Of a stretch of DNA of 40,256 bases, positions 9,915 through 24,007 are shown piece by piece. The notes under the pieces are model-generated. The model ran no database searches, was not told where the DNA came from, and was given only the letters and a program-made list of their open reading frames with translations. Made by a program: the position numbers and the translations under genes. This DNA is from a bacterium. Lineage in GTDB: Bacteria; Myxococcota_A; UBA9160; SZUA-336. The stretch's first letter is position 1, and every line of letters begins with the position of its first letter. The DNA lies in contig JAAELY010000004.1 in the NCBI GenBank assembly GCA_024226335.1, positions 1 through 40,256 on the forward strand, in the 5' to 3' direction.

Positions 9915-9957
9915 ACCGTCCTGTTTCAGAACGCCGTCTTTCGGGCGTCGGCGCGTC

Positions 9958-22109: not shown

Positions 22110-22494
22110 CTCGGTGAGTGTAGAAAGCAGTTTTGCATGGGTAGGGGGAGGCCATCGGAAGGCTCATGCGACCTGATCAAAGCTCACTGGCGCCGCATAA
22201 TCACGAGTCGATGCGCGCTGGTTTGGTGAGTTCAGGGCGCTCCTGATTTCTCTGCGTCTCCTTGTACCCAGGAGCACGTAACCTCCAGCCAGGGTCGCCA
22301 GTGTGCTCAATCTCCAGTCTGGAAGGATGAGGAGGCCCAAGTTTGGGTGAGTCCTTTCGAATCTCTGCCTGGTGTCTGGCATCTAGATCCGGGAGGGCCT
22401 TTCCGGTCGGGCAATCCGTACAGCGAAGGTCGAACCAGGATTCGAGAGAACCGATTGGCAGCTGCACGGATTGATCTCTAGACTCCGCCCTCAA
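22110..22494. other. Intergenic stretch without a supported gene
   Basis: 385 bp between the membrane-protein remnant and the methyltransferase. A minus-strand frame (22164-22382) contains a hydrophobic segment followed by an Arg cluster (LATLAGGYVLLGTRRRR), reminiscent of a C-terminal sorting tail, but nothing upstream in that frame looks like a protein body. I see no RNA gene. With the HAD and membrane-protein remnants on one side and the palindrome nearby, this looks like a decayed or rearranged segment. Confidence 0.4.
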
Positions 22495-23244
22495 ATGGGG
22501 TTCTACGCCAAGATTCTGCGGTTCAACCATTGGACGAACCGTTTCTACCACCGCTGGTCCGGGCGTAAGGATCATCTGGCCACCTACCACCGGATGCTCG
22601 GCGAGTGCTTATCGGAATCGAACGAAGCCGTTCACGTGGGCGCCGGTGGCCGAGACCCGACGGAACTGATCGGGCACCCGCTCGACGACGTCAAAATCTG
22701 GGCCGTCGATCCGAGTGCAGAGAGTCTGGCTCGGAGTCCGAACCCGAACAAGCTCGAGGCCTGGGGGCATGACATCCCCCTGCCCGATGAGAGCGTCGAC
22801 TGTGTGTTCAGCGAATACGTCATGGAGCACGTGGAAGACCCGGTGGCGACCGTGCGCGAAGCTCGGCGCATCCTTCGCCCCGGCGGCCAACTCCTGTGGA
22901 TGGCGCCCAATCTGTGGTCGTACAGCGGGATCGCCACGCACCTGACACCCCACGGTTTCCACATCTGGTTCAACCGACTGCTCGAACCGACCACGCCAGA
23001 GCGCACGACAGCCGACGTATTTCCGACGTATTTCCGCATCAACTCGATCCGCAGCATCCGCCGCATCCTCCGCGACGAGGGGTTCGAGATTGAGGAACTC
23101 CTTTGTGTCGCGTACGTGCCGCATTACACCCAGGCCATTCCGATCGTCCACCAGTTCGCGATCGTGTTGCACCTTCTGCTCGACTACTTCAGCTGGCTCC
23201 GACCCTTCCGCATGGTGCAGATCGTCAAGGCGCGACGCATCTAG
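22495..23244 (+). CDS. Class I SAM-dependent methyltransferase (Methyltransf_11-like)
   Basis: 249 residues from the ATG at 22495; a TTG at 22471 is an alternative. The SAM motif I is degenerate but recognisable (AVHVGAGGRD), followed by AVDPSAESL and the very typical DIPLPDESVDCVFSEYVMEHVEDPV and EARRILRPGGQLLWMAPN. A long C-terminal region with a hydrophobic helix (FAIVLHLLLDYFSWL) suggests membrane association. The family methylates small molecules, quinones or sugars; the acceptor here is not clear. No strong ribosome site was found. Its TAG stop overlaps the left end of the long palindrome at 23243, and the facing gene stops at the other end. Confidence 0.8.
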   Translation: MGFYAKILRFNHWTNRFYHRWSGRKDHLATYHRMLGECLSESNEAVHVGAGGRDPTELIGHPLDDVKIWAVDPSAESLARSPNPNKLEAWGHDIPLPDESVDCVFSEYVMEHVEDPVATVREARRILRPGGQLLWMAPNLWSYSGIATHLTPHGFHIWFNRLLEPTTPERTTADVFPTYFRINSIRSIRRILRDEGFEIEELLCVAYVPHYTQAIPIVHQFAIVLHLLLDYFSWLRPFRMVQIVKARRI

Positions 23245-23326
23245 TGTCCTGTTCCAGAAGTTCGCTGGCTATCCAGCGTGGCGTCCGGGCACCGGGATAG
23301 CCAGCGAACTTCTGGAACAGGACACT
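23243..23326. repeat. Long perfect inverted repeat (32-bp arms, 20-nt loop) between convergent stop codons
   Basis: The arms 23243-23274 and 23295-23326 are perfect reverse complements; each outer end reads AGTGTCCTGTTCCAG going inward. The loop is 20 nt and GC-rich. The left arm shares AG with the TAG stop of the methyltransferase; the right arm ends on the first base of the TAA stop (minus strand) of the next gene. No T-run follows on either side, so it is not a standard intrinsic terminator, although such a stem would still fold strongly in RNA. It is most likely a small mobile palindrome (MITE/REPIN-like) that also insulates the convergent genes. I saw no second copy in this window. Confidence 0.85.
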
Positions 23327-23841
23327 TAGGGGGTCGGGTCGCGACCCGGCGGAGATGGAAGAAAAGGGAGTGGATCGGGAAGGCTGCCCCGAGCCAGTCG
23401 CTCTTCGACTGATGCGACCATGTGGCTCGGGTAGGAGACCCGGGCCTGACTCCAGAACACGGCGCCGCCAGGACTCGCCAGTATTCCTGCAAAGTGGTCC
23501 CGATAGGCGTTGAAGGTCTCGTCATCCAGCGCCCCGGAGGCGTGCGAAGCTTGTGCGCCCTGGAAGTGCAAAACCTGATCCAGGAAAAGCGCAAAAAACT
23601 GCGCCCGGTCGGATTCATCGAGATCTGGAACCGAGCGGAGTCCTCGTTCCCAGATGTTCGAGATAGCGGGATCAGAAATGAAAGGGCGATTGAAGAGGCG
23701 GTAGCTCTCAACGATCTGCTGGCGGCTCGCCACGCGAAGTGCCGCCGTGTTCTGGCGAATCTGCAGGGCGAGGTAGCCGATGGTGATGATCACCGCGATC
23801 CCACCCAGGAAGTCGCCGAGGTTTCCAAGATCGTCCAACAT
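23326..23841 (-). CDS. Single-span membrane-anchored protein of unknown function
   Basis: 171 residues from the ATG at 23841; the longer open frame upstream overlaps the amidase gene and is not protein-like. An N-terminal anchor (FLGGIAVIITIGYLALQI) is followed by RQNTAALRVASRQQIVESYRLFN and a helical soluble domain (ESDRAQFFALFLDQVLHFQGAQ; FWSQARVSYPSHMVASVEERL). I recognise the pattern of a widespread family of uncharacterised proteins with an N-terminal QIRQNT-like motif after one membrane span. No catalytic motif is visible. Its stop codon touches the long palindrome. It is divergent from the amidase. Confidence 0.65.
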   Translation of the reverse strand: MLDDLGNLGDFLGGIAVIITIGYLALQIRQNTAALRVASRQQIVESYRLFNRPFISDPAISNIWERGLRSVPDLDESDRAQFFALFLDQVLHFQGAQASHASGALDDETFNAYRDHFAGILASPGGAVFWSQARVSYPSHMVASVEERLARGSLPDPLPFLPSPPGRDPTP

Positions 23842-24007
23842 GAATTCAACCGCTCGGTGAGTCGGCATCAACCGAGCGGAACCGTTCCGATCGGGCAGCG
23901 CCGAGAAGATCGGAGTATGCCGCAAGAGACTGCGGAAAGGGCGGATCGCTACTCGGGAAATCCGCCATTGCCCTACAATGTAGAGATCGAACGGCGCAAG
24001 AGGCGAA

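Follow-up and report, generated by a model that had tools for sequence, protein, structure and literature searches.

Two convergent genes meet at a short palindrome in the 40,256-nucleotide stretch of bacterial DNA analyzed here, which we call the window. The upstream partner, on the + strand (22471-23244), is an open reading frame for a class I SAM methyltransferase-like protein (Pfam Methyltransf_11, E = 1.8e-16) that closes with the TAG at 23242-23244. The downstream partner, on the - strand (23326-23853), encodes a conserved hypothetical protein of about 175 aa and closes with a TAA read 23328-23326; its exact start is uncertain, and the mechanical open reading frame extends to 24309. This protein shares 60% identity over 162 aa with that of a locus in a related genome, G020 (E = 9e-65), and a Pfam search with it returned no match.

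Between and across the two stops lies the palindrome. Its arms (23243-23274 and 23295-23326) are exact reverse complements of 32 bp each, separated by a loop of 20 nt (23275-23294); the original prediction had described these arms, this loop, and a stop codon at each palindrome end, and all are present. The predicted energy of the RNA hairpin is -75 kcal/mol, against -32.8 +/- 3.1 in 200 shuffles, none of which folded as well (z = -13.6). No terminator-like site or T-tract was found after the stem, which agrees with the earlier statement that this is no ordinary terminator, and an Rfam scan of the whole window gave no match above the gathering score.

The boundaries of the element differ slightly from those of the palindrome. 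A MITE of the IS630/Tc1-mariner type, 82 bp long and without a transposase gene, runs from a terminal G at 23244 to a terminal C at 23325; its ends are those of six 164-bp copies, and approximately those of an autonomous IS, in its own genome. Arm comparison and alignment with the 164-bp copies place the terminal inverted repeats, 31 bp each inside the element, at 23244-23274 (+) and 23295-23325 (-). The element sits between duplicated target TAs: the left one at 23242-23243, within the CTAG at 23241-23244, and the right one at 23327-23328, as read from the sequence and the rejoined flanks. The layout C-TA-[GTGTCC...GGACAC]-TA-G is also found in relatives. The sole departure of the window copy from a clean insertion into the TA of CTAG is an extra T at 23326, between the element end and the right TA, for which simple insertion gives no explanation; it is missing from nearly all other copies, and the sister copies are mostly clean. 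The outermost pair of the palindrome, A23243:T23326, is made of the A of the left TA and this extra T, both outside the element. The TIR-like end proposed earlier is thus a genuine terminal repeat but was drawn one base too long: the true end is GTGTCCTGTTCCAG, not AGTGTCC...

The element belongs to a dispersed family. A 111-bp query against its own draft genome (5.75 Mb, 556 contigs) gave 76 matching pieces, including single ends and one head-to-head pair, and recovered six paired sister copies of about 164 bp with the same ends (contigs C303, C509, C191, C47, C468, and C489). A 21-base end pattern matched 31 times in this genome, against 0 for its reversed control. The 84-bp size itself occurs once. 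Recent spread, as first proposed, is not shown for the exact 84-bp form, a single copy derived from the 164-bp family; the outcome named as refuting the prediction, one conserved copy at this site, did not occur. On C489 (12646-12709; L056, ~1630-1690), two partial MITE ends lie head to head with one common CTAG, the arrangement that would result if the CTAG bordering one copy had served as target for a second. A weak match within the window, at 9915-9931, was taken as chance because it lacks a partner end and lies outside a CTAG.

A likely partner is a multi-copy IS630 element. In thirteen contigs of the same genome, the end CTAGTGTCCTGTTTCAGAAGT (in one of them with one mismatch) lies some 110-160 bp short of where the contig stops, as is usual when a multi-copy element has been collapsed, and the inner translations at these edges, MGQRGRPRAAVTLTDAER or ...KPFIWTKSAEQILDSIRRFCSRVLQVHARKH*, are respectively the start and the end of an IS630 transposase. 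A DDE_3 search found the transposase interior absent from this assembly, so that a live source is inferred from the ends. The resident IS ends CTAGTGTCCTGTTTCAGAAGTTCC and the MITE ends CTAGTGTCCTGTTCCAGAAGTTCG match as terminal inverted repeats of the IS630 family, with a small difference (MITE TTCCAG...GTTCG, resident IS TTTCAG...GTTCC); the true parent of the window MITE may therefore be another IS, judging from these ends. Complete IS630 elements occur in two relatives, at 1198 bp (L095, genome G074) and 1197 bp (L096, genome G055), with ends CTA[GTGTC...GACAC]TAG; the L096 protein matches DDE_3 at E = 2.6e-26. With an IS with matching ends, complete in these two relatives and visible by its ends on 13 contigs of the same genome, added to the many copies recovered by the 111-bp query (76 pieces, six ~164-bp pairs), the original prediction of a mobile hairpin-type repeat, or MITE, is borne out. 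DDE_3 genes in G028 (L092) and G059 (L093) were rejected as candidates, since the stretch examined around each was without these ends. At C29, C293, and C419, three IS630 ends have a common outside flank, ...TGACGGATCAGGGCTAG, which suggests repeated insertion of IS630 into another repeated sequence.

In at least three autonomous copies, L095, L096, and L097, the transposase frame passes through the right terminal repeat as ...GH and ends at a TAG composed of the duplicated TA and the G of the target; the autonomous element thus borrows its stop from the CTAG target. IS870-type elements of Agrobacterium use their CTAG target in this way to supply the transposase stop codon, and the three IS630 copies resemble them in this respect while belonging to another IS family.

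Ends of this type were found in 19 of the 91 genomes of the class, and several other families of the class contain MITEs of 60-193 bp flanked by CTA/TAG. A length of 162 bp, measured between the TAs, is common to G000, G004, and G028. The window arrangement is closely paralleled in G088 (L183:1677-1742) by a 60-bp palindromic element on whose two sides frames of 391 and 378 codons end. In G022 (L193), a sister element occupies the exact junction of two convergent genes, and the orthologous loci in G033 and G024 are element-free, with the genes ending in the same region: presence and absence at an orthologous site is thus documented for the sister element. A search of the named genome collection with the exact 24-bp end pattern gave one match only, in a MAG titled Acidobacteriaceae, where a 113-bp CTAG-flanked element (L107:872-984) carries one identical 24-bp end; this element hints at wide or horizontal spread.

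Joining the window flanks without the element gives ...GCATCTAGGGGG..., in which a single CTAG serves as the TAG stop of both genes, one per strand, and both proteins end unaltered (...RRI* on the + strand and ...GRDPTP* on the - strand). A whole-locus DNA search of 98 related genomes for the empty allele gave no syntenic match; the comparison genomes come from other genera, and the empty site, which would read ...CGACGCATCTAGGGGGTCGGG..., is a reconstruction from the joined flanks. The left TAG is rebuilt by the duplicated TA and the terminal G of the element. On the right, a TAG is expected likewise, and the extra T turns the codon into TAA. Neither protein is altered, because TA duplication and the first G of the element restore TAG. 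The earlier suggestion that the insertion may have supplied the stops is not upheld: the target CTAG already held a TAG on both strands, and duplication with the terminal G restored it.

Stop codons are frequent targets of this group. Among the 29 insertions with both flanks readable, the reconstructed target is CTAG in 27. In 23 of the 29, the target TAG is the exact end point of a frame of 200 codons or more, compared with 7 of 39 ordinary CTAGs in the same DNA (p = 4e-7), and frames on both strands end there in 6 of the 29, compared with 0 of 39 (p = 0.004); these counts take open frames as proxies for genes, and related copies are non-independent. Counted per flank in its own genome, the excess is suggestive only (8/27 vs 10/108; p = 0.01 at 200 codons and 0.07 at 150), and the test was therefore repeated on relatives, where it gave 31/64 vs 22/124 (p = 1.3e-5); three codon cut-offs were reported, 200 being the one that stood out in the own-genome data. 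The excess measures target preference and purifying selection combined.

Taken together, these features make it highly probable that the window palindrome is an IS630/Tc1-mariner-type MITE, presumably mobilized in trans by a transposase that a multi-copy IS630 element with nearly the same ends supplied. Its target would have been the TA within a CTAG where the TAG stops of the two convergent genes overlapped; together with the terminal G, the duplicated TA would have rebuilt a stop on each side, and the insertion would have been tolerated because both proteins were unchanged. Loss of about 80 bp from the interior of a C303-like parent would have produced the present form.

Other origins account for fewer of these observations. 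A functional bidirectional terminator or a hairpin for RNA processing, maintained by selection and without a transposon origin, would suit convergent genes with abutting stops and a very stable hairpin; the stem, however, has no T-tract and no terminator-like match, and the membership of the sequence in a multi-copy family, dispersed and bearing IS630 ends and TA duplications, refutes this as an origin, so that we consider it very improbable. Once a transposon origin is granted, a later RNA role of the hairpin is possible, as is an RNA side effect such as a block to read-through between the genes. The other class named in the original prediction, a REP/REPIN pair spread by a RAYT (Y1-type) transposase, would also be short, palindromic, intergenic, and multi-copy. 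REPs are recognized as short palindromes tagged with GTAG/CGTC (PMC3733652), but the element ends GTGTCC...GGACAC with a TA duplication in CTAG, and these ends agree with those of an IS630 element encoding a DDE_3 transposase. In addition, the 164-bp copies have one unrelated interior between their arms, unlike two inverted REPs. A TA-duplicating IS630-type element without a REP pair leaves the REPIN alternative unsupported, and we give it almost no weight.

Within the MITE reading, the perfect arms call for an explanation of their own. In most 164-bp copies, the arms match at 25-30 of 32 positions; those of C303 are identical over at least 40 bp. On the - strand, the window copy consists of bases 1-52 of the 164-bp type followed directly by its final 32 bases, the two segments having GG in common where they meet; its loop corresponds to positions 33-52 in the 164-bp copies and is thereby identified as a leftover of their interior. 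The simplest route would be a parent of the 164-bp type with homogenized, C303-like arms, which lost about 80 bp of its interior by way of 2-bp GG microhomology and so became an 84-bp hairpin that is almost entirely stem. If one end had instead been copied by fold-back (a hairpin template switch), a perfect palindrome would result in one step, and the same G present in both arms (GCTGGC) and unseen in other copies would be accounted for; since the C303 arms are already identical over at least 40 bp, deletion and one homogenized or inherited change are enough, and we consider fold-back copying as the sole source of the palindrome rather unlikely. Deletion may nevertheless have been accompanied by arm homogenization or fold-back copying, as the G in both arms would indicate.

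The window element has counterparts among known systems. It shares with the IS630 family (Tc1/mariner superfamily) the C-TA-[element]-TA-G layout and, in elements with matching ends, the DDE_3 transposase; it differs in that the window copy is 82 bp and without transposase, and in the stop-codon anchoring measured here. A preference of IS630 for the TA in 5'-CTAG-3' is indicated by the title of Tenzen and Ohtsubo 1991, as cited in PMC2170065. RUP of Streptococcus pneumoniae, a 107-bp element thought to be mobilized by IS630-Spn1 and enriched between convergent genes (PMC2229807, PMC3049150), is likewise an IS630-type MITE with TA targets and convergent-gene enrichment; name, host, and size differ, and the likeness is one of published description. 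The Correia/NEMIS elements of Neisseria (~107 and 155 bp, TA termini, ~24-bp TIRs; PMC2229807) are also likened by description: an internal segment connects their size classes, much as it does the 164-bp and 84-bp forms here, in another host and at other sizes, and the parts of that source consulted report no tie to CTAG stops. By such comparison, the window element belongs with RUP and the Correia elements, and its new part is the stop-codon niche.

We found no description of such quantified stop-codon anchoring in the literature searched, and regard it as the new part of this analysis. A broader proposal, on which we are evenly divided, is that the IS630 group and its MITEs use TAG stops as a safe harbor: a CTAG target, TA duplication, and a terminal G would rebuild both stops, so that insertion between convergent genes would be neutral and leave a strong hairpin that may insulate both transcripts. 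The pattern gives a simple rule, open to counting, for harmless landing by one group of mobile DNA: exactly on stops, often those of two facing genes. It accounts for perfect hairpins overlapping convergent stops in such genomes, which can be mistaken for terminators or shared regulatory sites, and it opens a direct question: the share of target preference versus the share of selection. CTAG is itself scarce in the window, with 24 occurrences seen versus ~52 expected from trinucleotides.
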